From Paracoccus marinaquae (GTDB lineage Bacteria; Pseudomonadota; Alphaproteobacteria; Rhodobacterales; Rhodobacteraceae): a DNA stretch of 64,000 bases. Shown one piece after another: positions 5,139-15,019 of this stretch (the stretch's first letter is position 1; every line of letters begins with the position of its first letter). Made by a program: the position numbers and the translations under genes. The stretch is from the NCBI RefSeq assembly GCF_018860165.1, contig NZ_JAHKNG010000002.1, positions 186,001-250,000 on the forward strand, in the 5' to 3' direction. Under the pieces are notes generated by a model, which was not told where the DNA came from, searched no databases, and saw only the letters and a program-made list of their open reading frames with translations.

Positions 5139-5214
5139 GCCCGGATAGCTCAGTTGGTAGAGCAGCGGATTGAAAATCCGCGTGTCGGTGGTTCGAATCC
5201 GCCTCCGGGCACCA
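5139..5214 (+). tRNA. tRNA-Phe (GAA), CCA encoded
   Basis: A 76-base cloverleaf. Seen: acceptor arms GCCCGGA and TCCGGGC pair perfectly, the D-arm holds AGCTCAGTTGGTAGAGC, the anticodon loop TGAAAAT gives GAA, the T-arm has GTTCGAATC, and the 3' ACCA is encoded. The 3' 49 bases are duplicated exactly at 14971-15019, so this tRNA is the integration target of the neighbouring element; insertion leaves the tRNA intact. Confidence 0.97.
5166..5214 (+). repeat. attL core: 49-bp 3' half of tRNA-Phe
   Basis: The anticodon stem to CCA end of tRNA-Phe, identical over 49 bases to 14971-15019 and in the same orientation. The flanking bases differ on both sides (G versus C before, T versus C after), so the repeat ends are sharp. 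Tyrosine integrases commonly use tRNA 3' ends as attB. Confidence 0.95.
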
Positions 5215-5257
5215 TCTTTTCAAAGACTTGCGTCATGTCGATGACCTCATTGCTCGA

Positions 5258-5280
5258 TTTTTGAAACAGCCGTTGAAACA
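5258..5280 (+). promoter_or_regulatory. Candidate integrase arm-binding repeats, left end (two TTGAAACA)
   Basis: TTGAAACA occurs at 5261-5268 and 5273-5280, between the att core and the integrase stop codon. The same octamer occurs twice in the same orientation at the other end of the element. Position and spacing fit arm-type sites of a tyrosine integrase; this is inference. Confidence 0.6.
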
Positions 5281-5281
5281 T

Positions 5282-6310
5282 TTACGTTCTGGGCTTGTTC
5301 TGTTCCCAGCGATTTCGGGCTTCCTGCGCCCTTGTCGCCAACTCTTTCTGCCTTATCTGTCCTCCGTATTTTTTCAGCATCTCAGCGCCAGAATGGCCGG
5401 TAACGGCCTTCACTAGCTCGTCGTCATTGCCAGCCTGATAAAGCTCAATGGTGGCGTTCTTGCGCAGCCCGTGGGTGACGTAGGTCATGGCGTCCGGGTG
5501 CTGCATCCCGGCTTTCACCTTGCGCATATCCTTGGCGACAACCTCGTATCGAACAGGGCGGCCCTTATCGTCGGTGATGACGGTCAGGCCCTTTTTCTCG
5601 ACCGTCGCGAGATAGGCATTCAGGCGGTCGGTGAACGGGATCCACAGGGGCTTGTCCGTCTTGCCTTGGGTGAAGTCCCATGCGCCGTCCTTGATATGGT
5701 TCCAGCGCATTTTCACAATGTCACCGATCCGCTGGCCGGTGCCGATGCACAACTCATAGACCAGACGGGCGCGGGGCGGGGCGAGGCATTCAAACTCGGT
5801 CCGCACGTCATCAGGCCAGGGCACCCAGCCGTCGCCTTCCTGCTTGAACAGGGGAATACCCTTGGCAGGGTTGCCGTGTTCCTTCTTGAGGAAGCCGATC
5901 AGGCGGGCGTGGTTCATTAGCACGACCATCACCTGAACCAAATAGTTCGCCTGCCGCCAGTGTTCGGCGTTGGCGCGGTGCAGTTCGTAGATGTGGTGCG
6001 TCTCGATCTTGGTCGGGTCTTTGGTGCCCCAGATCGTGCGAATGTGGCTGATATACTTCTGATAGTCGCGCTTGGTGCGCGGCTTCAACTTCTTGAAACC
6101 CTCGCTCTCATAGTAGCTGAGGATCAGCGCCTCGAAATTGCGCTTCACCGGGACAGGCTCACGGCCTTTCAGCAGCAGGTTATAATGGTCCCAGAACTCG
6201 GGCGTGCCCGGCTCCTCCTTCATCATGACCGACTGACCGCGCGCCCGGCGGATGAACCGGACATAGTTGCGATCCTGATAGACATACTTGGGCAGTTCGC
6301 TTTTCGTCAT
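5282..6310 (-). CDS. int: Tyrosine-type site-specific integrase
   Basis: A 342-residue recombinase at the left end of the element, 67 bp from the attL core. Seen: an N-terminal SAM-like arm domain (residues ~60-150), then the catalytic domain with arginine in CIGTGQRIGDIVKMRW, the HGLRK box, histidine in TGHSG and the tyrosine nucleophile in MLKKYGG. All catalytic positions are present, so it looks active. Its ATG overlaps the upstream stop (ATGA), so it is the last cistron of the element's transcript. No excisionase was recognised, although the 62-residue upstream protein could be considered. Confidence 0.95.
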   Translation of the reverse strand: MTKSELPKYVYQDRNYVRFIRRARGQSVMMKEEPGTPEFWDHYNLLLKGREPVPVKRNFEALILSYYESEGFKKLKPRTKRDYQKYISHIRTIWGTKDPTKIETHHIYELHRANAEHWRQANYLVQVMVVLMNHARLIGFLKKEHGNPAKGIPLFKQEGDGWVPWPDDVRTEFECLAPPRARLVYELCIGTGQRIGDIVKMRWNHIKDGAWDFTQGKTDKPLWIPFTDRLNAYLATVEKKGLTVITDDKGRPVRYEVVAKDMRKVKAGMQHPDAMTYVTHGLRKNATIELYQAGNDDELVKAVTGHSGAEMLKKYGGQIRQKELATRAQEARNRWEQNKPRT

Positions 6311-6495
6311 TTGCCCATCCTCAGATCGCCGCTTGTGAAGTCGTCGCCGCCCTCGGGGTCGGTCATGCTTGCATCAAGTGTGATGCTGCCGTCAGGCTTG
6401 ATCTCGAACCTTGTCCGCATCCAGCCAGCCGCCCGTGCGTCGCGCAGAAGCGCGGCAACGGTGCTTTTTGCTTGGGTGGTAGGGCGGGGGGCCAT
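6307..6495 (-). CDS. Small protein of unknown function coupled to integrase
   Basis: A 62-residue protein translationally coupled to int (ATGA at 6307-6310). Seen: a basic N-terminal half with a helix-like segment (KSTVAALLRDARAAGW), then FEIKPDGSITLDAS and an acidic end. No known domain is recognised. Small proteins of this look sit directly before integrases in several alphaproteobacterial elements (recollection, not checked). A recombination directionality role is possible but unproven. Confidence 0.7.
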   Translation of the reverse strand: MAPRPTTQAKSTVAALLRDARAAGWMRTRFEIKPDGSITLDASMTDPEGGDDFTSGDLRMGK

Positions 6496-6497
6496 CG

Positions 6498-7199
6498 TCA
6501 GGCCCCTTTCATCCAGTTAGTATCGCGAGCGCGAACATACGCCTTGATTTCGGCAAAGCGGCGCTGACGTTTTTCACCGCGCAATTCATCGTTCCAGGGA
6601 TGCGTGAGAGCCAAGGGATAACCTTGATCGTCAGCGCCATAGAAGCGACTTGCCCACATCTCGGCGGCAACGGTCAGCAGGGCCACGGGCGCAAGGCCGC
6701 GCACGCGCATGATTCCGCTATGCTCGGCACGGTCCTTATCCAGCAACTCAGCGGTAGGTTCTGGCGTTCGGAATTTGACCGTGGTGTTCTTCATCTTGAA
6801 CACAGCATTTTTCTGGTTTTCTTGGATCTCGAAATACGGAAATTCGCCGAAGTGGGATTCATCATCCAGCTCAGCGCCAAACATCCTAACCAGAACTTGC
6901 TCAAGGGTCGGACCATCTCCAAAGAGATATGCCGGAAGATTGCCATCTCCTTCAACGGTGCGCAGCTTCATGTCGCGGTATCGTTCGACAGCCTCAACCA
7001 TCTTTGCCGGACTGTCAGTCGAAAGCAGCGCAATAGTCATTCGCGCCGCGTCCAATGGTATCATGTTGGGCGCGTTGACGCCTCTTGCACCTGTCGTCAG
7101 AAGGCCCGCCTCCTTGAGGCTGCGGGCCACCAGTGTGACGGTCTTTTCGTCAACGCGATAGACGCGCGAGATAAGCGATATGAACGATCCAGATTTCAT
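6498..7199 (-). CDS. Putative winged-helix DNA-binding protein of the element
   Basis: A 233-residue protein with no named family recognised. Seen: residues ~5-50 (SLISRVYRVDEKTVTLVARS followed by LKEAGLLTTG) read like a winged helix-turn-helix; the rest is mixed alpha/beta without a clear motif. The ATG at 7199 lies just downstream of an inverted repeat (7202-7224) that overlaps a possible promoter. Inferred: this is the best candidate for the element's regulator, perhaps autoregulated. It ends 2 bp before the 62-residue gene, giving a regulator-small protein-int group. Confidence 0.6.
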   Translation of the reverse strand: MKSGSFISLISRVYRVDEKTVTLVARSLKEAGLLTTGARGVNAPNMIPLDAARMTIALLSTDSPAKMVEAVERYRDMKLRTVEGDGNLPAYLFGDGPTLEQVLVRMFGAELDDESHFGEFPYFEIQENQKNAVFKMKNTTVKFRTPEPTAELLDKDRAEHSGIMRVRGLAPVALLTVAAEMWASRFYGADDQGYPLALTHPWNDELRGEKRQRRFAEIKAYVRARDTNWMKGA

Positions 7200-7201
7200 G
7201 C

Positions 7202-7224
7202 CTTATTGTCTATCACGCAATAAG
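7202..7224 (-). promoter_or_regulatory. Inverted repeat CTTATTG-N9-CAATAAG, candidate operator
   Basis: Perfect 7-bp arms at 7202-7208 and 7218-7224, ending 3 bp before the ATG of the putative regulator at 7199. On the minus strand a TTGCGG and a TAGACA are separated by 17 bp and overlap the dyad, resembling a weak sigma-70 promoter. This is the only convincing intergenic control site inside the element. Confidence 0.45.
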
Positions 7225-7260
7225 AGGTGCCGCAATCATTTTGTGTATCGCTCAAATAGT

Positions 7261-7288
7261 GCCCGGCCAGACCTCGATCCAGCCGGGC
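7261..7288 (-). terminator. GC hairpin, possible weak terminator
   Basis: Arms GCCCGGC (7261-7267) and GCCGGGC (7282-7288) form a 7-bp stem with a 14-nt loop just past the stop of the small ORF ending at 7297. There is no T-run, so termination is uncertain. Confidence 0.3.
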
Positions 7289-7296
7289 GATCCGCA

Positions 7297-7431
7297 TCAT
7301 GCGGCTTCCCGGCGCTTGGTGCATTCGGCCTTCCAGAGTTCAAGCGCCGGTTCCAGTTCAAGGCCCTCGTCCAGAACGGCTTTCAGCACGAACGCCATTG
7401 CCTCCGCCTCGTGGCCGGTCAGGTGCCGCAA
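7297..7431 (-). CDS. Possible small ORF (44 residues) in the element
   Basis: An open frame from a TTG at 7431 (an ATG at 7398 would give 33 residues) to TGA at 7297. Seen: the sequence reads as an amphipathic helix, with HLTGHEAEAMAFVLKAVLDE and ELEPALELWKAECTKRREAA. It overlaps in another frame the abnormal 3' end of the head-closure ORF, so only one of the two can be genuine here. No family is recognised; it could be a phage gene remnant. Confidence 0.35.
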   Translation of the reverse strand: MRHLTGHEAEAMAFVLKAVLDEGLELEPALELWKAECTKRREAA

Positions 7432-7732
7432 GCCTTCCCTCGTGCGCTTTTACAGCTTGTATCCCTAGTTCGCGATTTCTTGCCGGGAAAGACGGGCGAA
7501 TGAAGCGGACGCCTCCCGACGTCGGGAGGCGCTTACCTTCGGTTCCTCCACGCGCGCGCGGGCGAATGAAGCGGGGCCGGTGCAACATCCCGCTGCCCCG
7601 CAGGTAATGGACGTGCGCCGGTATCGTGAATCGCAGCAGCCAATCTTGAATTACCTGCCCGTCAGGATCGACATCCTCGAAAGGCTCATAAAACCCGGCT
7701 ATGCGTGTCAGATCGTCAGCCGCGATTTTCAT
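7358..7732 (-). pseudogene. Head-closure/head-tail adaptor gene with abnormal C-terminus (probably disrupted)
   Basis: The ATG at 7732 overlaps the portal stop (ATGA). Seen: the first ~47 residues (RIAGFYEPFEDVDPDGQVIQ, then WLLRFTIPAHVHYLRG) match the look of the SPP1 gp16-type head-closure family, which is usually 105-115 residues. After RGSG at about 7590 the protein turns into an Arg/Pro-rich sequence containing RFIRP twice, which follows from a 16-bp direct repeat around a 22-bp palindrome (7493-7574). Inferred: the 3' half was replaced by a rearrangement or small insertion. If so, the capsid may lack its own head-closure ring. Confidence 0.6.
7493..7574. repeat. 16-bp direct repeats around a 22-bp perfect palindrome
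   Basis: CGGGCGAATGAAGCGG occurs at 7493-7508 and again at 7559-7574 (66-bp period). Between them lies a perfect palindrome at 7510-7531 with 11-bp arms beginning CGCCTCCCGAC. It sits exactly where the head-closure gene loses its family similarity, so it may be the footprint of a small mobile repeat or a recombination event. Confidence 0.75.
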
Positions 7733-8802
7733 TCCTCGGCCCAATCAATAAACGACAAAGCGTCGGTGACGGTGGCATCATCCAGCCCCGCCTCTTTCGC
7801 CTGTGCCATCGCTTGCAACATCCCCGCGAAGGCCCGTGCTTTGCCGCCATGATCGAAAGCCTGCATCGGCCTGACACAATCCAGCGTGACCTTGCTGCCG
7901 ATCTTGGCGGTGGCTTCCTCGGCCATCAAGTTGCAGATCGGTTGCAGGACAAGCTGCGCTAAATGGCGTTGCGCTTCCCTCACAAGCGGCCCGGTGGTTG
8001 CCGGGTTGTGCAGGCCGGGAAGGATACCAAACGCGCTGTAGATCGCGCCCTTGGCGTCCGTCAGCAGCGTATCCGCCAGGGTGCGTTGCAGGTCCGGGGT
8101 AAGCTGATCAGGTGCCTTGCCCAGATTGGGGTGCATACCAGCAGCGGTTGCCTGCGCCACGCCCTCGATCACAAGAGCCTGACCACGCCGCCCGCGAAAG
8201 CCCTTCCGCAAGCTATCCATATCGTCAGCCGCCGAATCCGGGACATGGACGATCTGGGAACCGATAGGCGCATCCCGGAATACATCGGTCAGCGCCGTCT
8301 CGACCGCGTTCAACAGGTTTGCCGACAGCTTGGCCCGCATCAACGGTGCCGTGCCGGTCCAAGGTGCCGCTGAATCGCTGCCGATCCTGAAATGAAGCAC
8401 CTCGCCTGCCAGCGCCGTTTCAGATCGCCCGCCGCCCGCCTCGGGGATACTCATGCGGTAAGCACGGGGTTCGCCGTTCCGCGTGGACAAGTCCCAGTCA
8501 ACCGCCGGAATCAAGCGATCCCGGATCAGCCAAACAGATTCGCCCCGCAGCGCCAGAGAACGCGCTGTGAGCGCCAGAGAGTGCCGGGATAGCAGATCGG
8601 TGCCCGACACGTCAGAAAGGCTTAGACCGGCCTCCCAGAGGCTCACAGAGGCTTGTGCAGCCGCCGTCAGTTCCGCGATCCCGGATTGCCCGCTGATCCA
8701 GCTTTCCCGAGCCGCCACGATCTGCGCCGTGAAACCGGGGGAAACTGCGCGGGTTTCGACGGGCCGGGATTTCAGCCGGTTGAATAGATCCATCAGGCCC
8801 AT
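7729..8802 (-). CDS. Phage portal protein, HK97/lambda-like family
   Basis: A 357-residue protein, slightly shorter than the usual ~400. Seen: an N-terminal MGLMDLFNRLKSRPVE, the portal core with SGTDLLSRHSLALTARSLAL and RGESVWLIRDR, a segment EVLHFRIGSDS, and a C-terminal helical region. Known: the portal forms the dodecameric ring through which DNA is packaged and to which connectors attach. It starts 1 bp after the prohead protease stop and overlaps the head-closure start. In HK97-like phages the portal precedes the protease and capsid; here it follows them. Confidence 0.88.
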   Translation of the reverse strand: MGLMDLFNRLKSRPVETRAVSPGFTAQIVAARESWISGQSGIAELTAAAQASVSLWEAGLSLSDVSGTDLLSRHSLALTARSLALRGESVWLIRDRLIPAVDWDLSTRNGEPRAYRMSIPEAGGGRSETALAGEVLHFRIGSDSAAPWTGTAPLMRAKLSANLLNAVETALTDVFRDAPIGSQIVHVPDSAADDMDSLRKGFRGRRGQALVIEGVAQATAAGMHPNLGKAPDQLTPDLQRTLADTLLTDAKGAIYSAFGILPGLHNPATTGPLVREAQRHLAQLVLQPICNLMAEEATAKIGSKVTLDCVRPMQAFDHGGKARAFAGMLQAMAQAKEAGLDDATVTDALSFIDWAEE

Positions 8803-8803
8803 G

Positions 8804-9349
8804 TCACAGCCTCCAACGGTTGAGGGGGTGAAGCGGGCGGGCGACTGCCTCTTTCATGCCCCATGCCCGAGCCTCGATCTGCGCCGAGGGATAGGCGGGC
8901 CGGGTCACTGCGCTGATCTCGAACAGATCGGCCTTTGTGACAGTCCGCAGCATCCCGTTGCCCCGCCGCTCAATCCGTTCGCCATCAGGCCGGACGCGAA
9001 AGCCCGGTGACAGCCCCCGAATCAGGCCAGAGCCATGAGCCGCCAGAAAGTCCCGCGCCCATGAAGTCCCGCCGTCCAGTGTGGCGTCGATCTGCAAGGC
9101 GTCGTCGGTTTCGGTCAGGGTCAGGTTGCCCGCCGATCTGGATGCCAGCGGGCGATTGTAGTCATGGCCCGCCAGCAGGTGAATATCTTCGCCGGTTTCA
9201 ATCCGGTCTGCGAAAGCGCGGGCGGCGATAACCTCATACCGCCCGTTAGCCAATTCGGTTTCTTGGCCGTAGGGGAACCGGGCCGACAGACGGGTTTCCC
9301 CGCCTGCCGTCCTGATTTCCAGGCTACCGATTGAGCCGCCCCACAACAT
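8804..9349 (-). CDS. HK97-family prohead protease
   Basis: A 181-residue protein, typical for peptidase family U35. Seen: the catalytic histidine in HLLAGHDYNRPLASRS and serine in RGLSPGFRV, with a later LFEISAVTRPAYPSA segment characteristic of the family. Known: it cleaves the delta domain of the major capsid protein during head maturation. The ATG overlaps the capsid stop by one base (TAATG at 9347-9351), so it is translationally coupled to capsid synthesis. Confidence 0.93.
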   Translation of the reverse strand: MLWGGSIGSLEIRTAGGETRLSARFPYGQETELANGRYEVIAARAFADRIETGEDIHLLAGHDYNRPLASRSAGNLTLTETDDALQIDATLDGGTSWARDFLAAHGSGLIRGLSPGFRVRPDGERIERRGNGMLRTVTKADLFEISAVTRPAYPSAQIEARAWGMKEAVARPLHPLNRWRL

Positions 9350-10575
9350 TACGCGGAACCGATGCCGGTGATCACGCGGACCTGTGCCTGACGCGGCATG
9401 ACCAGATCAGTGGTCAGCAGGCCGGTAAGCCGCAAGCCGCCGCTCGTGGCGTCCGAATACGGGTCGCGGATCATATCCACGCCGCCCCAAAGGCCCAGAT
9501 AGGCCGGGGAAAGCCCGCCAGCGGTGACGGTCAGCAGAGCCGTGCCAGCGTCCAGTTGCGTGGCCTTGACCACGTTGCCAGCGCCGACATGCTTCACTAG
9601 GCGGTCCCATTCGGTAATTCCGCTGCCCGCGTCCCAGATCGCATCGTCAAGATCGGACCAATCTTGCGGATTGATCGCCAGCTTGACCTGCGAAGGATCG
9701 GCAATGGCATTGGCAGCCATGAAGGCCAGAATTTCAGCCTTGAAGGTCGCCCACGTCGCCGCCCCGGTAATCGCCTCGGTATTGCTCGCCCCGGTGACGA
9801 TGCCGGTGGGTTCGCCCGAAGCGCCCGAGCCGATCAGGATCGCCCGATCCAGTTCAGCGCCGATAGCCGCCGCCATATCCCGGCGAATAGCCTGCTCAAG
9901 CCCCGCGCCGGTTTGCTTCATGGCCTTGCGAGAGATACGCATATGCGCCCCGAGCGTGTGATCGGGGGAAAGCGTAGCCTCGGCAGTCTGGAACGCGGTT
10001 GCCGCCGGAACGTCGCCGCCCTCGGTCGCAGCCCATCCAGCAGTCGCGCCAGCGGTCGCAACAGGGTATTCCTGCGATCCCTGCGCGATCTGCACCGAAT
10101 TAACGCCGATCCGGGACGCAACGGAAGTCGGAAACAGCCGGTCGAAAATGCTCAGGGTGCGCACGGGCGACGGGGTATCGGTCGAAACCGTATTCCGTTG
10201 CTCCAAGGCTTCCAGCGGAACCGGAATGCCGCGGTATCCGCCTGCCTCGCGCATCTCCTGCACAATCTCGGCCGTCTGGCCCGAGAGGCTGCGACCTTCA
10301 TCAAGCGCCAGCACAACCTGCCGAGTCTCGAAAGAGGCCATCATCTCGGCCCATTCCTTGTCGGAACGGGTTTCCAGTTCTTCGCCCGCCTCGCGCCGCT
10401 CGGTATCTTCGGCAATCAGCGCAGCCCGGTAACGGGTTTCATTGGCGCGATATTCTGCATCCAGCGATTCCATGCTGCGGGTTTCATCGTCGGACAGATC
10501 GGGCTTGCCGACCAGCGCCGAAAGTGTTTGGCGAATTTCGGACTGTCGCCGTTGCAGTCTTACAGAATCAAGCAT
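9349..10575 (-). CDS. HK97-fold major capsid protein
   Basis: A protein of 408 residues from the ATG at 10575; an ATG at 10587 adds four residues but has a poorer ribosome site, while 10575 follows GAGGTTA. Seen: a charged coiled-coil N-terminal delta domain (residues ~1-110) that the protease would remove, then HK97 capsid segments such as QEYPVATAGATAGWAATEGG, the DRAILIGSGASGEPTGI turn and a C-terminal PRQAQVRVITGIGSA. Known: this fold builds icosahedral heads. The gene appears intact, and with portal and protease should suffice for procapsid assembly. Confidence 0.93.
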   Translation of the reverse strand: MLDSVRLQRRQSEIRQTLSALVGKPDLSDDETRSMESLDAEYRANETRYRAALIAEDTERREAGEELETRSDKEWAEMMASFETRQVVLALDEGRSLSGQTAEIVQEMREAGGYRGIPVPLEALEQRNTVSTDTPSPVRTLSIFDRLFPTSVASRIGVNSVQIAQGSQEYPVATAGATAGWAATEGGDVPAATAFQTAEATLSPDHTLGAHMRISRKAMKQTGAGLEQAIRRDMAAAIGAELDRAILIGSGASGEPTGIVTGASNTEAITGAATWATFKAEILAFMAANAIADPSQVKLAINPQDWSDLDDAIWDAGSGITEWDRLVKHVGAGNVVKATQLDAGTALLTVTAGGLSPAYLGLWGGVDMIRDPYSDATSGGLRLTGLLTTDLVMPRQAQVRVITGIGSA

Positions 10576-10921
10576 GATTAACCTCATGTGTTGCTCGATT
10601 GGATTTTGCCGCTAAATCAGCGACGGCTTGCCCCCAAGCGCGTTTCTCGGGGGTGTCAAAGACCGGCGACCAGCCGACTTCGATTCGGGTTTTCTGCGCG
10701 TGACAGGACGGTGCCAGCGCCTGCAAATTGGCCGGATCGAACGCCAGTTCGGGATGCGTCCGCACGGGTTTGATGTGGTCAATTTCCAACCGCCGCCGTT
10801 CACCGCAGCCGCAAGCACAGGTCCAGTTGTCGCGTTCCAGAATGATCTGCCGCAGAACCTGCCAGCGTTTGGTTGACGTCACGCGCCGGGAATGTTTCCG
10901 ATATTCGCGTTTCAGGCCCAT
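10568..10921 (-). CDS. HNH endonuclease of the packaging module
   Basis: A 117-residue protein. Seen: two Cys pairs (CACGCGE and a later SCHAQKTR) and the HNH core LEIDHIKPVRTHPELAFDP followed by ANLQAL. Known: HNH proteins next to terminase genes cooperate with terminase for cos cleavage in HK97-like phages. It overlaps the terminase 3' end by 10 bp and the capsid start by a few bases. Its presence suggests cos-type packaging, although a cos site was not located. Confidence 0.88.
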   Translation of the reverse strand: MGLKREYRKHSRRVTSTKRWQVLRQIILERDNWTCACGCGERRRLEIDHIKPVRTHPELAFDPANLQALAPSCHAQKTRIEVGWSPVFDTPEKRAWGQAVADLAAKSNRATHEVNHA

Positions 10922-12441
10922 GCGATTCTCGCTTTCTTCGCGGGTGCAGCCAGCATCCGGGCACCTTGCGCCACAGCCAGGACGGTTGCCGCCACAGCGT
11001 CTATGCGGCCCAGAGAGCGGCCTTTCGCCAGCTTGGCGTTGCCGTTCGGATCATGAATGACAATGGCGTCACTGAACGCGCTGCGCAGCAGCAGGGACGG
11101 GATAACGCTGATCTCGCCATCGAACAGTGCCCGCCTGAACCGCTCAATATCTTCGGAGCCGTCTTTCCAGCCAAAGCCCCGCCAGATGAACGGCACCTTG
11201 CCCAGCCCCGCCTTGTCCATCGCCTCGGTAAACTCGGCATGGCGGAACCTGTCTCCGCAGATACAGGCCGGGGTGATCCCGTCCAGCATCCGAACGATCT
11301 CGGCCAGCCACGGCCCCGGCGGAACGGTGTTTTCGCCCATGACCGACAATTCGCCGCGTTCCTGCATCTCGACATAGCGGCCTGACACGCCATCAGCCGC
11401 GCCACGATCCGAAAGGCCGGGTTTGCCGGGAAAGGTGCCTATCGCTTCAAGTCTGCTTGTCTGGGGCCAGTAGAACGCCGCTGCCGACATTGACCGAGAT
11501 CCACCAAGATCAACGCCAAGGATGCACGGCCCTTCCCGTGCAGGCAGTTCATCCGGGTTGACCTCGGCAGTCAGCCATTCATCCACGGTGATCAGGACCG
11601 ACTTGTCCTCGGTGCTGACACGCTCGTTTCTGTTCAGGTTGCGGAAGCTGGACAGCGCCGATCCGCCCCGCGCAATCGCCCGCCGCGCTTGTGCGACCAG
11701 CCATTCCGGGCTGGAACCGATGCCTTCCTTAGCGCCGGGATTGGCTTCCAGCAGCGAATCCAGATCGTCCGCAGGCAGGCCAAATGCGGGCCGGTGTTCT
11801 TGCACGAAAGTGCCGGGGGGCGGTTCATCAAGCCAGCGGGAAAAGGTATTCGCATCATCCGGTGCGGACGTGCTGATGATCAGGGCGCGACCATCGCGCT
11901 TGCCAAGGCCCGACAAGATCGCGTTTTCCAGATTGTCGCCCTTGTCGCGTTCCCATGCGGCCCGCTCATCCATGATCGCCAGTGTCGGTGCGCCGCCCAA
12001 GATCGACTTGCCATCTGCCGCAATGACGCGGGCCAAGCCGCCGCCATTGTCGGGATATTCGACCTCAAGTTTGCTGCCGCGCCGGATCGTGAACAGTTCC
12101 TGTTCTTCCTCGGGCAAGGATTCGATGAAGCCGACCAGAAACCCGAAAGCCGTTTTCGCCTGATCCCGATTTCGGGCCGCGAATATGATTTCCCGCTTGG
12201 GCTGATCGTCCCATGCCCCGACCAGATGCCCGAGAGACAAGCCCGCCGAAAGCGCGGTTTTTGCGTTGCCGCGACCGATCGACAGAACGCCGATCATGTT
12301 GCCCGGTGCCAGAGCGCCGCGAACGAATTGCTTCTGATACCGCGCCAGTTTCAGCGGCTTGCCAGCAAGTTTGCCCTCGGGGATCGTCAGCCCGGCAAGG
12401 AATTTCAGCGCCGCAGCGGCATGTTTCGTTGGACGGCTCAT
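10912..12441 (-). CDS. Terminase large subunit
   Basis: A 509-residue DNA packaging motor. Seen: ATPase domain with a variant Walker A (LSIGRGNAKT), Walker B LAIMDERAAW, coupling segment ALIISTSAP, then a nuclease domain with aspartates in LGVDLGGSRSM, CGDRFRH and GRIDAVAA. Length and motif order fit HK97/phiC31-type large terminases. Unusually, no small terminase gene is visible next to it; the 88 bp upstream (12442-12529) hold no gene. A helper-supplied or highly divergent small subunit would be needed. Confidence 0.92.
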   Translation of the reverse strand: MSRPTKHAAAALKFLAGLTIPEGKLAGKPLKLARYQKQFVRGALAPGNMIGVLSIGRGNAKTALSAGLSLGHLVGAWDDQPKREIIFAARNRDQAKTAFGFLVGFIESLPEEEQELFTIRRGSKLEVEYPDNGGGLARVIAADGKSILGGAPTLAIMDERAAWERDKGDNLENAILSGLGKRDGRALIISTSAPDDANTFSRWLDEPPPGTFVQEHRPAFGLPADDLDSLLEANPGAKEGIGSSPEWLVAQARRAIARGGSALSSFRNLNRNERVSTEDKSVLITVDEWLTAEVNPDELPAREGPCILGVDLGGSRSMSAAAFYWPQTSRLEAIGTFPGKPGLSDRGAADGVSGRYVEMQERGELSVMGENTVPPGPWLAEIVRMLDGITPACICGDRFRHAEFTEAMDKAGLGKVPFIWRGFGWKDGSEDIERFRRALFDGEISVIPSLLLRSAFSDAIVIHDPNGNAKLAKGRSLGRIDAVAATVLAVAQGARMLAAPAKKARIAWA

Positions 12442-12529
12442 ATCTGCCCCCGGAATTTTTTCGGAAGAGAGAAAAGAACACTCAGGCGCGGGTCACACGC
12501 CATTGCAGGTTTCCGGGCATTGGGACCAG

Positions 12530-13060
12530 TCATACCGCGACCCTCCGATAGCGGGCTGCGATCCGTGACGCTGCCGGTGTCAGGTGCGGACGCTTGGTAT
12601 CGTCGCCCCGGTAGTCGAAGATCCCCGAAGCCTGATCCATGACGGCCAGCTTCAGATCGTCGGGCACGTCTGCCGGGTCTGTGCCGTATCCCGCTTCATA
12701 GCTGATCGTCAGTGCGCCGCTCATGTCCTCGGGCAGCGTGAGCCGGGGATACCTGCCGCCTTCCACTGTGCCGGTGAAGGCTGTGCCGTTGACAGTGACG
12801 GTGCTGCCTGGTGCAAGCGGGCCAACGGGCAGGCTGATCAACTCGCCCGCCTCTGCAAACGTGTGTGCCGTGATCGTCTGCGTGGTCAGGCTGATCTCGC
12901 AATAAGCCTCGATCTCCATCGCTGCCGCATCTGCCAGCCGCTGGCACTCGGCCAGTATGGTGGGTTCGGTATCCGCAGCCGTGAAGCCGGTGCGCATGTG
13001 GACAACCAGCGCGTCCATATCGACAGCCGCCGAAGCGCGTGGAGTGCGTTCGTATCTCAT
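12530..13060 (-). CDS. Head-tail connector, HK97 gp6-like
   Basis: A protein of about 176 residues. The start at 13060 is chosen because it overlaps the helicase stop (ATGA); 13066 is an alternative. Seen: an N-terminal helical region (EPTILAECQRLADAAAMEIE), a beta-rich middle with GPLAPGSTVTVNGTAF, and a final helix where PADVPDDLKLAVMDQAS starts, which is the shape of gp6-type adaptors. Known: gp6 forms the ring below the portal. Here it lies upstream of terminase rather than after capsid. Confidence 0.75.
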   Translation of the reverse strand: MRYERTPRASAAVDMDALVVHMRTGFTAADTEPTILAECQRLADAAAMEIEAYCEISLTTQTITAHTFAEAGELISLPVGPLAPGSTVTVNGTAFTGTVEGGRYPRLTLPEDMSGALTISYEAGYGTDPADVPDDLKLAVMDQASGIFDYRGDDTKRPHLTPAASRIAARYRRVAV

Positions 13061-14526
13061 TGCCATGCCTCGCTGTTGTTGGGATCGTTCATCGCCTCGA
13101 AGTCATCAGCCGCCGACTGTGCGCCGGTGCTGATCGCCTCATCAGTGAAGCGCTGGGGTTCTCGTTGCGGTGAAGGCGTTACCGTTACCGGGTCAGATTC
13201 TTGGTAACGGTCACGGTCCGAAGTCGTTACCTCGTTAACCGGCGGGGTCTCCGTTACCGCGTTACCCCCCTTTAGGGGGGAGGTAACGCCGGTAACGCTG
13301 GATTGACCGGATTCAGAAGCGTTAACGGTTTCTTTGGTAACGGTCGGTAACGCCGGTAACGGTGCATCATCTGGGGCGACTTTCCACAGCCAACCATCAA
13401 TGATCCTGACAACCTCTTTCTCTTGCAGTCGGTTCTTGACCTTGTGGAAGGCCACCCGCTTGGCGCTATCGCTTTCGCCGCTCGAAAGGCTGTGCCGGTC
13501 GCAATACTCGCGCCATTTTTCCAGAGATATACAGCGCCGGTTGCGGGGGTAATTGTCACTGCTCATCTTCTGGCCATGATCGCGGACACAATCATCCAGA
13601 GCCTGCAATGCGATCTTGTCGGTGCCCGTCAGCCTGACCTTTTTCGCCACCGGCTCGGCGGGAACCACCACAGCGGATGCCACCTGATCGCCATCTTCAT
13701 CGAAGCCGATATGGACCAATTTCAGGCTATAGGCGAATACGCTGTCACAGGGCAGATCGCGTTGCTTGCGCGCCTCGGCCTGCACGATGCCATCATTGCG
13801 GGTCAGTTCGATTTCTGTATCCGCAGCCGCGCGAAGGCTGCCAGAGCCTCGCGCGCCCTTGCTTTCGTCTTTGCCGCTGTGATGCACGACCATGACATGC
13901 GCCCCGGTCGCTGCCCGTATGTCATCCACTGACCGGACCAGCTGGCCCATGTCCTTGGCGCTGTTCTCGTCGCCACTGCCCATGACGCGGGCCAGCGTGT
14001 CGATGACGATCAGGGCGGGCATTGCCTTGAATCCTTCGCGGATCGCCTCGACCAGATATTTGGCGTCCTCGGCGGTGCAGAGGTCCAGCGGTGCCGACAG
14101 GATCGACAGATGGCCCCCGGCCTCGATCCGGCCCATCAGGTCGGGGTTGTGCCGCCTCATGGCCTCGATGCGGCTGCGGATGCCTCGCCCGCCCTCTGCC
14201 GCGACATACAGCACCGGCCCGGCGAATTTGTCATCGGTCGGGACGCGGCTGCCGTGCCAGTCCTCGCCCGCAGCTATGTGCAGCGCCAGGTCCATCGCGA
14301 AGAACGTCTTGCCGACATTTGACTGACCGTAGACCACGCTGAACGCGCCGCGATCCAGCCAGCCCTTGACCAGATACCGCGACCGCAGATCGGCCTTGAT
14401 CCGTGCCAGCGGCATGATGGCTGCCGACAGGTCCGCAGTTCGGCCTGTCAGTCGGCTGCGGCTGTCAAAGCCCATGTCTGCCCGGTGCTGGGCGTCCAGA
14501 TCGCCCATTTGCTGAAAGACGGTCAT
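13057..14526 (-). CDS. RepA-like replicative helicase/AAA ATPase
   Basis: A 489-residue protein. Seen: RecA-like core with Walker A YGQSNVGKTFFA (residues ~70), Walker B ALIVIDTLARV, and a switch-type HVMVVHHSGKDES, matching plasmid RepA/AAA_25 helicases. A winged-helix-like segment follows (residues ~320-380), then a disordered, Thr/Val/Ser-rich tail. The DNA of that tail holds 11 exact GTTACC/GGTAAC hexamers, a possible origin. Inferred: it replicates the excised element. Its ATG overlaps the upstream ORF stop (ATGA), and its own stop is coupled to the connector. Confidence 0.85.
   Translation of the reverse strand: MTVFQQMGDLDAQHRADMGFDSRSRLTGRTADLSAAIMPLARIKADLRSRYLVKGWLDRGAFSVVYGQSNVGKTFFAMDLALHIAAGEDWHGSRVPTDDKFAGPVLYVAAEGGRGIRSRIEAMRRHNPDLMGRIEAGGHLSILSAPLDLCTAEDAKYLVEAIREGFKAMPALIVIDTLARVMGSGDENSAKDMGQLVRSVDDIRAATGAHVMVVHHSGKDESKGARGSGSLRAAADTEIELTRNDGIVQAEARKQRDLPCDSVFAYSLKLVHIGFDEDGDQVASAVVVPAEPVAKKVRLTGTDKIALQALDDCVRDHGQKMSSDNYPRNRRCISLEKWREYCDRHSLSSGESDSAKRVAFHKVKNRLQEKEVVRIIDGWLWKVAPDDAPLPALPTVTKETVNASESGQSSVTGVTSPLKGGNAVTETPPVNEVTTSDRDRYQESDPVTVTPSPQREPQRFTDEAISTGAQSAADDFEAMNDPNNSEAWQ
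13177..13361. repeat. Iteron-like GTTACC/GGTAAC cluster, candidate replication origin
   Basis: Exact GTTACC at 13178, 13184, 13226, 13253 and 13261; exact GGTAAC at 13203, 13282, 13291, 13336, 13346 and 13355; near copies at 13234 and 13321. That is 11 in about 183 bp, against roughly 0.1 expected by chance. A C-run/G-run hairpin (13261-13287) sits in the middle with a hexamer at each end. The cluster lies inside the helicase gene, as lambda iterons lie inside gene O. Confidence 0.65.
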
Positions 14527-14883
14527 GCCGCAGCCCTCCCTTGCACGTAGCCCAGGAAGGCGTGTTGATCCGATGCCGACAGGCGCGTGTAGCAGGCCAG
14601 CGCATAGGCTTTCAGTTCCGCCGCGCTGGCCCAGTCGGCCCAGTGCGATGCCTCGGCCATGACGCTATCGAAGGCCGGGACGGGCTGGCCGGGGCGCAGC
14701 GCCTCGATGAACCGCTCCATCAGCGGAACGCGGTCACGGCGGTCGCAGGCCAGCACGGCCTCCAACAGCCCCCTTGCCGCCGCCTCGCGGCGTGTGCTAG
14801 TGTCGATCCATTCGAACCACGAATGCAGATCAGCCCCGATTGCGCCCGCCAGCGCGTCGGGGTTTTCATTTGCGCCTGTCAGA
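14523..14883 (-). CDS. Unknown first gene of the element (start uncertain)
   Basis: The frame is open from 15083, outside the element, but the part over the att core (PGGGFEPPTR) is only a translation of the tRNA repeat, and the arm-site repeats also lie within the extension. The true start is therefore probably near 14883 (CTG) or at the ATG 14720. Seen: helical, soluble sequence with HSWFEWIDTSTRREAAARGL and a C-terminal LKAYALACYTRLSASDQHAF. It is coupled to the helicase (ATGA). No family is recognised; a replication or regulatory role is possible, and a divergent small terminase cannot be ruled out. Confidence 0.55.
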
Positions 14884-14888
14884 TAGGC

Positions 14889-14941
14889 GTTTGAAACATT
14901 CTCGTTAAGTTCACGATTTGTCGGGGCCGCTTTTGAAACAG
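14889..14941 (+). promoter_or_regulatory. Candidate integrase arm-binding repeats, right end (two TTGAAACA)
   Basis: TTGAAACA occurs at 14891-14898 and 14933-14940, about 30 bp inside the right att core. Together with the left pair, four same-orientation copies would flank the core in the excised circle. They also argue that the first gene of the element starts to the left of 14889. Confidence 0.6.
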
Positions 14942-14970
14942 AAGCCCGTTGATTTTCTTGGATTTCGTGC

Positions 14971-15019
14971 CGGATTGAAAATCCGCGTGTCGGTGGTTCG
15001 AATCCGCCTCCGGGCACCA
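14971..15019 (+). repeat. attR core: duplicate of tRNA-Phe 3' half
   Basis: Perfect 49-bp direct repeat of 5166-5214 without the 5' half of the tRNA. It marks the right boundary of the element. The perfect identity suggests a functional or recent integration. Confidence 0.95.

Follow-up and report, generated by a model that had tools for sequence, protein, structure and literature searches.

The window analysed here is a 64,000-nt stretch of the Paracoccus marinaquae genome (assembly GCF_018860165.1, contig NZ_JAHKNG010000002.1, contig positions 186,001–250,000), and coordinates are given as positions within it. This stretch carries a 9.8-kb element (5166–15019) integrated at a tRNA-Phe gene, which is kept intact and whose 3′ part contains one of two att repeats (Table 1). 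As claimed in an earlier note on this DNA, these repeats are perfect and the element genes are all co-oriented, lying on the minus strand. The G+C content, calculated over 1-kb windows, is ~0.56–0.64 inside the element versus ~0.63–0.71 outside.

Table 1. Features of the tRNA-Phe element of P. marinaquae, by position in the window
Feature	Position	Strand	Evidence or remark
tRNA-Phe(gaa), integration site	5139–5214	+	ARAGORN
att repeat, copy 1	5166–5214	none	49 bp, 100% identical to copy 2
Tyrosine integrase, 342 aa	5282–6310	-	PF00589 E=1.6e-16; phrog_1
62-aa protein, in the slot of relatives' small excisionase-like proteins	6307–6495	-	no Pfam/PHROGs family
p233, 233-aa cargo protein	6498–7199	-	no Pfam/PHROGs family; 92% in relative L083
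44-aa remnant or small ORF (p44 cluster)	7297–7431	-	gene caller and clustering
RNA 3′ hairpin remnant	7565–7600	-	29 nt identical to L084 RNA 3′ end; nhmmer model 219–254, E=0.03
Truncated head-closure (Hc1) gene, N-terminal part	7591–7732	-	open frame continues to 7358
Portal, 357 aa	7729–8802	-	PF04860 E=3.3e-8 (below curated cut-off); phrog_12 E=8.9e-5
Prohead protease, 181 aa	8804–9349	-	PF04586 (Peptidase_S78) E=3.1e-23
HK97-type major capsid protein	9349–10587	-	PF05065 (Phage_capsid) E=9.8e-18
HNH endonuclease	10568–10921	-	PF01844; phrog_144
Large terminase (TerL), 509 aa, HK97 type	10912–12441	-	PF03354 and PF20441 (ATPase, nuclease); phrog_9 E=1.7e-58
Head-tail adaptor (connector)	12530–13066	-	phrog_442 E=4.7e-14
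RepA-like AAA ATPase (AAA_25), replication	13057–14526	-	PF13481 E=6.8e-42
p186, conserved first gene of the element	14523–14900	-	conserved in relatives
att repeat, copy 2, distal element end	14971–15019	none	49 bp, identical to copy 1

The integrase is indeed full length, and the AAA_25 match agrees with the RepA-like helicase proposed initially; a Roseobacter phage primase/helicase matches the protein at 39% over 71%. TerL shares 29.5% identity over 93% with that of HK022, and the portal is full length in the relatives as well. The HK97 head and packaging genes listed in the earlier note (capsid, protease, portal, connector, large terminase, HNH) were all confirmed; the one correction concerns a head-closure gene, Hc1, which is truncated by a ~0.4-kb deletion.

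Pfam and PHROGs assigned no family to the 62-aa protein, to the 233-aa protein or to the ORF at 7358–7744, and Pfam none to the p186 ORF. Its gene position suggests a putative excisionase-like role for the 62-aa protein. As regards regulators of the PICI type (Stl, AlpA), relatives encode excisionase-like and Arc-like proteins according to PHROGs, none being recognised by Pfam or PHROGs in the P. marinaquae copy; PHROGs matches to a "partition protein ATPase" were about as numerous as the Arc-like ones and were read with caution. Clustering of the element proteins placed p233 in other elements of the family as well. In structure searches with AF2 models, p233 (pLDDT 75.8) had no PDB match and the all-helical p186 no viral fold match, both at E≤0.001, and p233 was rejected as a hidden tail protein on this PDB search. 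Likewise, p186 was discarded as a small terminase, since it co-occurs with a recognised one in other elements, has no viral match at this threshold, and was matched by VIA-align to one chain only (Z 3.7). Its start is uncertain because no ATG, GTG or TTG was seen between att and the conserved part of the frame. Defence was not retained as a common cargo: PADLOC, run on 104 proteins (set A2), found no shared system, and its matches were scattered, nearly all of one protein each (HEC-09, RmrA, capH, others).

Pfam and PHROGs scans of the P. marinaquae element recognised no tail, lysis or small-terminase gene, in agreement with the first reading. Small terminases diverge fast in sequence, and none was recognised by these two resources in the relatives either. 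Across 24 elements, 202 non-core proteins searched against PHROGs gave no tail or lysis family, a result that covers families matched by at least two proteins, 2 and 23 single-protein families lying outside it. All 53 loci with enough flanking sequence were devoid of matches to the major tail, tape measure, chaperone or neck proteins of larger sibling elements (see below); 19 of them have an unassigned ORF of at least 500 aa in the searched flanks, mostly beyond the att limits, one of these ORFs (726 aa, in L242) lying inside the element, before terL.

By its sequence, the P. marinaquae element is a member of a conserved family of predicted head-making, tail-less mobile elements, whose genes keep the same order between att repeats at numerous tRNAs in Paracoccus, further Rhodobacteraceae and some proteobacteria outside that family, including the betaproteobacterium Pusillimonas. 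Capsid relatives occur in 34 of 125 Paracoccus genomes at E≤1e-10 (29 of the 34 at ≥55% identity across 280 residues or more), and a capsid model (E≤1e-60) was matched in 36 of 292 Rhodobacterales genomes and 26 of 112 genera. The head gene order is common to 23 elements delimited by direct repeats of 16–58 bp, namely the P. marinaquae element, 21 further loci of the genus and one IMG/VR contig, and is additionally found on two circular-looking contigs. Within a search range of 7–18 kb, the repeats of these delimited elements are spaced by 9.4–11.4 kb, and the integration sites comprise tRNA-Phe, Ala, Arg, Cys, Lys, Glu, Asn, Thr, Tyr and His; the same gene set with conserved boundaries, which the earlier note had proposed to look for at tRNA-Phe, recurs across these tRNAs. 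An automatic rule allowing 7.5–16 kb delimited 42 of 80 named-genome loci at 9,650–11,346 bp (median 10,338.5) and left 38 undelimited; the 42 include 2 contigs with terminal repeats and 12 genus loci counted again. Three relatives (L040, L069, L245) are integrase-less and circular-looking.

The head genes of the family are under purifying selection, with omega values of 0.06–0.32 for capsid, portal, protease and terL among the pairs listed; values for rep and int were unusable, reaching 1.36 at 24–30% identity between non-equivalent genes. It is extremely improbable that the element is what chance deletion has left of a full-length prophage: full tailed prophages do exist in Paracoccus (32.8–61.8 kb among the rows listed in the available part of PMC6536676), but the same reduced gene set recurs in many hosts and at many tRNAs, with narrow sizes and genes under selection, and the nearest capsids among isolated phages (19 matching records of 50,697) are at most 32.4% identical. 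At the family level we found no irregular sizes or boundaries, gene decay or full-length relatives as expected of defective prophages, the P. marinaquae copy having one deletion. The earlier rejection of a random remnant thus holds for the family, and the two observations that the earlier note named as contrary to it, relatives that are all full prophages or sister head genes that are broken, were not made: delimited relatives are ~10 kb and omega is low.

The deletion affects the frame after the portal gene. What is left of this gene corresponds to the first ~50 codons of Hc1 (51–63% identity over residues 1–55 with L062, L065, L069 and L070), whose intact gene in relatives encodes 108–112 aa and is assigned in L062 to phrog_25 (head closure Hc1). 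A junction at 7591–7600 joins the truncated gene to the 3′ hairpin of a structured RNA, ~401 nt being missing relative to L069; compared with its relatives, the P. marinaquae copy has lost the C-terminal half of Hc1 and the RNA downstream of it, and may therefore be less complete than first supposed. A decayed, immobile satellite, whose heads could no longer take a tail once head closure and RNA were removed, is a somewhat doubtful yet serious reading of this copy. The truncated Hc1, the lost RNA core, the RNA not being found in the rest of the genome by a search with strict filters, and the uncertain p186 start all point that way. Conversely, the integrase and the other head ORFs are open, omega is low in pairs including this copy (a measure in which very recent loss would leave no trace), and an Hc1-like gene is also missing next to the portal in several relatives with att boundaries (L054, L055, L061, L083 and L084 among them), others having no RNA. 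As other members also lack Hc1, the RNA or both, the P. marinaquae copy may still move, though less surely.

In the relatives, this RNA (R1) is ~163 nt long and structured, 29 of its 45 pairs showing changes on both sides; the weakest part is a proposed pseudoknot helix (66.9% of cells paired, 2 of 5 pairs mostly broken). In 37 of 38 loci its start falls at most 8 nt from the stop codon that ends the last structural gene; in most small loci with R1, this places it directly 3′ of the portal gene. It is absent from 32 of 70 loci. At gathering score, Rfam recovered only tRNAs in six RNA-bearing loci; its best match below that score had E=0.4 (L084, 12000–12700). Among the 849 pair cells, G.U occurs in 85 and A.C in only 16, so that an RNA of the late-operon strand is favoured over a DNA-level cos/pac site, which is disfavoured as the main reading. 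A repeat near 7560 was dismissed as a cos candidate, convincing matches (at most 3 mismatches) being confined to the P. marinaquae element and L069.

Two ~50-kb phage contigs also carry the RNA, there with a repressor and a clamp-like gene nearby, and plasmids of P. liaowanqingii hold five copies, with no shared neighbour gene in the three of five regions examined. The larger siblings (one firmly delimited at 17.7 kb, two at 18.9 and 20.6 kb by short repeats; a 45-bp tRNA-Leu repeat marks one sibling) share rep and R1 with the small elements and encode a head and a tail tube, with no recognised tail tip or lysis gene; here R1 follows the tail chaperone, and both small and large terminases are present. 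The packaging RNA (pRNA) of phi29 offers only a remote parallel, against which speak this chaperone-adjacent position in siblings with both terminases, the repressor and clamp-like neighbours in the phage contigs, and the loci without R1. We tentatively suggest, at chances just short of even, that a single satellite chassis (p186, RepA-like ATPase, R1, Arc-like repressor, cargo, integrase) serves as the base for interchangeable particle modules, either head-only (~10 kb, P. marinaquae type) or head plus a complete tail tube with tape measure and with neither tail tip nor lysis genes (~18–20 kb), the small kind needing the whole tail of a helper and the large kind the tail tip only. R1, tied to the end of the last structural gene, whichever this is, and also present in the phage contigs and plasmids, would be a trans-acting or late-mRNA regulator common to satellites and phages of the same hosts.

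Taken at the family level, recurring ~10-kb elements, gene order and selection support the capsid-forming satellite proposed in the earlier note, helper dependence being inferred: the element is very probably a phage satellite that builds a small HK97 head itself and relies on a helper for everything else. With head genes of their own and no recognised tail genes, family members probably use the tail of a helper phage. As predicted from gene content, the element would be passive while integrated at tRNA-Phe; once a helper phage is active, it would excise by its integrase and be replicated by the RepA-like ATPase, while capsid, protease, portal and adaptor would build a head sized for ~10–11 kb, filled with element DNA by the element's own large terminase and HNH nuclease, tail and lysis being supplied by a helper siphophage. 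A tail-less mode of spread, for instance in vesicles or through natural transformation, in which the head would serve some other function, would fit the unrecognised tail genes and the integrase-less circular-looking forms; it is most improbable given that members retain the portal and the adaptor, and several of them head closure, all parts that join a tail.

The P. marinaquae genome also holds a cluster (L094) that we take to belong to the Rhodobacterales gene transfer agent (GTA) family. It resembles the element in its HK97-type portal, protease, capsid and adaptor, and differs in that its own tail genes follow the head genes. Similarity between them is of partial length (protease 30%, capsid 26%, no portal match at E≤0.01) and too weak for the GTA to be retained as ancestor of the satellite heads. 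That the GTA instead serves as resident helper, lending its tails to satellite heads, is very unlikely: Phage_tail_2 matches occur nowhere else in this genome, and the adaptor of one satellite (L072) matches the GTA adaptor over 183 residues (27.9%, E=7e-12 in a small database), but phage adaptors match about equally (49 versus 54.7 bits), and a relative is present in Pusillimonas, where the occurrence of a GTA lay outside the comparison.

Capsid-forming PICIs (cf-PICIs) have their own capsid, protease, portal, connector, terminase and HNH genes without tail or lysis genes, according to the available sections of PMC10690885 and PMC11389934. The P. marinaquae element is likewise a small integrated island, with integrase and att, its own capsid, protease, portal and connector (Hc1 truncated), TerL and HNH, and no tail or lysis gene recognised in it or its relatives; its own capsid operon sets it apart from classical PICIs, which use the helper capsid. 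By its gene content, its family would work like cf-PICIs and may belong to them, for which PMC11389934 describes three capsid clades; it differs from them by the unrecognised small terminase, mainly alphaproteobacterial hosts, the RepA-like AAA_25 module and the structured RNA common to many relatives. Elements from Alphaproteobacteria may already figure in the cf-PICI tables of earlier publications. The cf-PISP satellite plasmids of Vibrio, as presented in extracts of PMC13230959, similarly combine head genes without tail and a small replicon, and the circular-looking relatives resemble this plasmid form; the P. marinaquae element differs by being integrated, with integrase and att, by its size (~10 versus 15.8 kb) and by its hosts. 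The Streptomyces satellites MulchRoom and MiniFlayer also have their own encapsidation genes and, unlike the element, virulent helpers, no obvious replicase and direct terminal repeats, MiniFlayer showing no integration (accessible text of PMC10690885). Our open-access literature searches found no report of phage satellites in Rhodobacterales, a statement that holds for those searches.

If these readings are true, Rhodobacteraceae genomes would regularly include head-making satellites (36 of the 292 Rhodobacterales genomes match the capsid model), and these are missing among the prophages listed for some of the same Paracoccus strains in the available portion of a published survey (PMC6536676). 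Since members occur in culturable strains such as P. sediminis DSM 26170, whose att-delimited element retains both head closure and R1, helper, particle and RNA are directly testable. For the same strain a siphophage of 48.5 kb is listed, and P. denitrificans DSM 413 likewise carries a member of the family. The larger siblings would place the line between satellite and phage at the tail tip and not only at the tail, and in R1 satellites and phages would have a novel regulator or particle factor in common.

The element of the P. marinaquae window is enclosed by two identical 49-bp repeats, and the tRNA-Phe gene stays whole since the first repeat corresponds to its 3' part. Read from the distal end on the minus strand, its genes encode the conserved protein p186, a RepA-like AAA_25 protein, a head-tail adaptor, the large terminase (TerL), an HNH protein, the capsid, the protease, the portal, a short head-closure-like frame, a 233-aa cargo protein (p233), a 62-aa product and a tyrosine integrase. 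Its scanned proteins matched no family of tail, lysis or small-terminase proteins. Repeat and family scans thus confirmed the anatomy described in the earlier note, and the stop-to-start overlaps mentioned there are present between several adjoining genes.

Relatives of the capsid were detected in 34 of 125 genomes of the genus, Paracoccus (E<=1e-10), 29 of them with at least 55% identity over at least 280 residues and the others partial or remote. Among the 59 loci compared (38 genus surroundings and 21 IMG/VR loci) plus the window, direct repeats of 16 to 58 bp, mostly at tRNA genes, delimited 23 elements with a repeat spacing of 9.4 to 11.4 kb (allowed range 7-18 kb); loci ending at contig borders or without a clear repeat were left out of this size count. 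A capsid-alignment scan of named genomes yielded 245 relatives among 396 pattern stretches. Hosts of the best 80 of these 245 were mostly Rhodobacteraceae, together with Chelativorans, Jiella, Aliihoeflea, Chelatococcus, Hansschlegelia, Hyphomonas, Citromicrobium, Altererythrobacter and one Pusillimonas. With a repeat spacing of 7.5-16 kb allowed, 42 of the 80 loci could be delimited, all of 9,650 to 11,346 bp (median 10,338.5), including 2 contigs with terminal repeats and 12 loci repeating genus loci. The Pusillimonas noertemannii locus (L210; 10.4 kb, 56-bp repeat) is a member of the family outside Alphaproteobacteria. In the order sample, hits of the capsid model (E<=1e-60) came from 36 of 292 genomes, representing 26 of 112 genera; isolated phages gave nothing close (19 of 50,697 records, identity <=32.4%). 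Two integrase-less contigs, L040 (10,022 bp) and L069 (P. binzhouensis; 10,206 bp), carry terminal repeats of 99 and 88 nt, respectively, as expected of circles. A circular-looking, integrase-less, head-making contig of ~10 kb was also observed in Gemmobacter serpentinus (L245), with a coverage of 941 in its title; these three are perhaps satellite plasmids.

Tail and lysis genes were sought across the family by scanning 202 non-core proteins from 24 delimited or circular-looking elements, all other than that of the window, against PHROGs. Families matched by at least two proteins, all of which were listed, comprised adaptors, head closure, Arc-like and other regulators, excisionases, topoisomerase, DNA-binding proteins, unknown families and a doubtful 'partition ATPase', with no tail or lysis family among the matches listed; the families outside this list (2 and 23) each matched a single protein. 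Unassigned ORFs of at least 500 aa occurred in the searched flanks of 19 of 53 named-genome loci with sufficient flank, one of which, in L242 (726 aa, before terL), lies within the att limits. The AlphaFold models of p186 (pLDDT 84.5) and p233 (pLDDT 75.8) had no match at E<=0.001 among viral models and in the PDB, respectively.

Broken copies do occur in the family: the portal is split in L080, and terL has a deletion in L088. The head genes show purifying selection. For terL, capsid, protease and portal, Nei-Gojobori ratios ranged from 0.06 to 0.31 in the closest pairs listed, and they were 0.15-0.20 for terL, 0.20-0.32 for capsid, 0.21-0.31 for protease and 0.20-0.30 for portal between the window and its relatives, the latter being approximate because synonymous divergence reaches ~0.8-1.2. 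Ratios for rep and int included pairs that are not equivalent genes, giving meaninglessly high values. The satellite set does not look like a collection of prophage remnants, in line with the doubt about a random remnant voiced in the earlier note.

Many members carry ~250 non-coding bases directly after the portal or head-closure gene, which contain a structured RNA with no Rfam match at its position in six loci. An alignment of 19 core sequences supports a structure in which both partners vary at 12 pairs (covariation 0.196 vs 0.096 shuffled). In a larger alignment of 36 diverse sequences, made without use of structure, paired cells made up 90.0%, both partners varied in 29 of 45 pairs (17.6 shuffled, 13-19 slid) and covariation reached 0.299 (0.148 shuffled, <=0.090 slid). 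RNAalifold alone recovered the five nested helices with 35 pairs, 23 of them changed on both sides; a proposed pseudoknot helix was weak (66.9%). Among 849 cells, G.U pairs (85) were common relative to A.C (16), so the structure belongs to the RNA of the late-operon strand. The covariance model matched 28 of the first 60 loci, the window not among them. Across the genus it hit 70 places, spread over 45 of 125 genomes; it also matched 39 of 79 named-genome loci (E<=0.01) and, under strict filters, 20 of 394 family genomes. The first base of the model falls between -8 and +7 nt relative to the stop codon that ends the last structural gene in 37 of 38 RNA-bearing loci. Some loci hold instead c16, a zinc-ribbon-looking protein of 148-178 aa without Pfam family: of the 70 loci in which 700 nt or more follow the portal, 37 contained the RNA only, 10 c16 only, one both (L223) and 22 neither, counts which, the loci being related, are not a test of independence. 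Both also occur together in the IMG/VR contig L287.

The DNA pattern of the RNA core alone retrieved 42 contigs from IMG/VR, 30 of which measure 8.0-13.2 kb; 36 contain the RNA and 30 were classified by rule as head-only satellites, with some repeating earlier loci. BLASTN of one RNA found no match in isolated phages and hit five P. liaowanqingii plasmids (NZ_CP040761, 040759, 040756, 040762 and 040765; L126-L130), a single strain with one copy per plasmid and no phage structural genes seen nearby. The RNA was also observed in two viral-labelled IMG/VR contigs, L293 and L326 (total lengths 48.8 and 52.8 kb; 13.1 and 10.3 kb examined), upstream of genes for a 166-aa and a 369-aa protein, the latter sliding-clamp-like as read from its sequence. 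Two ~10-kb regions (L160 and L156, in genomes G014 and G024) carry the RNA together with a p186-like gene and an integrase of satellite type, with no satellite capsid or terminase recognised, and are possibly a third, capsid-less kind. Our guess is that the RNA acts as a regulator, of the late-mRNA or the trans-acting type.

The window copy has lost this RNA. Over residues 1-55, the frame following its portal shares 51-63% identity with relatives from L062, L065, L069 and L070, whereas L076 and L080 match less well; the intact gene of relatives encodes 108-112 aa (phrog_25, head closure Hc1, in L062). Compared with L069, the first half of the head-closure gene joins directly to the end of the downstream RNA, with ~401 nt missing, and 29 nt agree without mismatch with the 3' hairpin of the L084 RNA; this fusion indicates that the window copy lost the end of the head-closure gene together with the RNA, of which the model found no copy in its own genome. 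The head module described as near-complete in the earlier note therefore stands for the other head genes, with head closure broken off and the RNA lost.

Coordinates of the window element, RNA slot features and larger sibling elements
Feature	Location	Strand	Remarks
Element	window:5166-15019	-	
att repeats	window:5166-5214 and 14971-15019		
tRNA-Phe gene	window:5139-5214		
RNA remnant	window:7565-7600		
Deletion junction	window:7591-7600		10-nt overlap
RNA core, 163 nt	L084:12233-12395	+	model R1
c16 in RNA-less post-portal slot	L053:6911-7423		also L177, L201, L224, L225, L227, L232
Sibling G084	L146+L133		limits rest on a short repeat, 16 bp, no tRNA; 20.6 kb
Sibling G010	L147+L139		firmly delimited, 45-bp tRNA-Leu repeat; 17.7 kb
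Sibling G017	L149+L141		limits rest on a short repeat, 14 bp at tRNA-Ser; 18.9 kb
Sibling G063	L148+L132		no delimiting repeat found

Four RNA copies lie in larger elements with backbone genes of the window type but a different particle module. Their rep (66-72% identity in three of four), p186 (67-71% in two) and Arc-like protein (80-82% in two) resemble those of the window kind, and their integrase is distantly similar (29-33%). The module encodes a portal, a protease-capsid fusion, HNH (three of four), a major tail protein, adaptor, neck, head closure, small and large terminases, a tape measure and a chaperone, followed directly by the RNA, cargo and integrase, the last at the opposite end in G017. 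PHROGs names derive from G084 and from scans of leftovers in G084, G010 and G017, which added a tail terminator and a tail-assembly chaperone; G063 was named by similarity only, and G084 probably contains an inserted transposon. No tail-tip or lysis family occurred among the matches listed (25 of 54 and 25 of 32 families). Tape-measure relatives (E<=1e-20) were found in 29 of 125 genus genomes; among nine further surroundings, the block ends after the chaperone with no large genes behind in G072, G062 and G031, G041 and G032 show the block end only, G042, G012 and G021 belong to a second subfamily and G097 is a fragment. The major tail, tape-measure, chaperone and neck proteins of these siblings matched none of the 53 named-genome loci with sufficient flank. 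We read the larger siblings (~18-20 kb) as satellites that would also make their own tail tube, putatively lacking the tail tip only.

The window kind would sit integrated, be replicated by its own RepA-like protein, build a small head of fixed capacity and fill it by means of a large terminase of HK97 type and an HNH protein, both its own, with tail and lysis supplied from elsewhere. The phage terminases closest to its TerL are those of HK022 and relatives (29.5%). The portal and the adaptor, joined in several members by head closure, would make sense only if a tail is added, and we infer that a helper's tail is used. The Paracoccus prophages considered here from a survey (PMC6536676) measure 32.8-61.8 kb, and four strains with full phages in its table, P. 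denitrificans DSM 413, P. sediminis DSM 26170, P. sphaerophysae HAMBI 3106 and P. yeei ATCC BAA-599, carry the satellite capsid here, a co-occurrence that does not name the helper. The window's own genome holds a GTA-like (gene transfer agent) cluster (L094, G000:C76) and a 3,144-bp fragment of another phage (L095, G000:C146) with portal, ClpP-type protease and capsid genes, named by eye.

The element shares its plan of working with capsid-forming PICIs as outlined in PMC10690885 and PMC11389934 and is a candidate member of that group, with no small terminase recognised in it. The circular-looking members resemble the satellite plasmids (cf-PISPs) of Vibrio as presented in PMC13230959. As a plan of working, the capsid-forming satellite proposed at the outset is supported by the gene set and the anatomy of the family. 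What should surprise specialists here are the structured RNA and the larger siblings.
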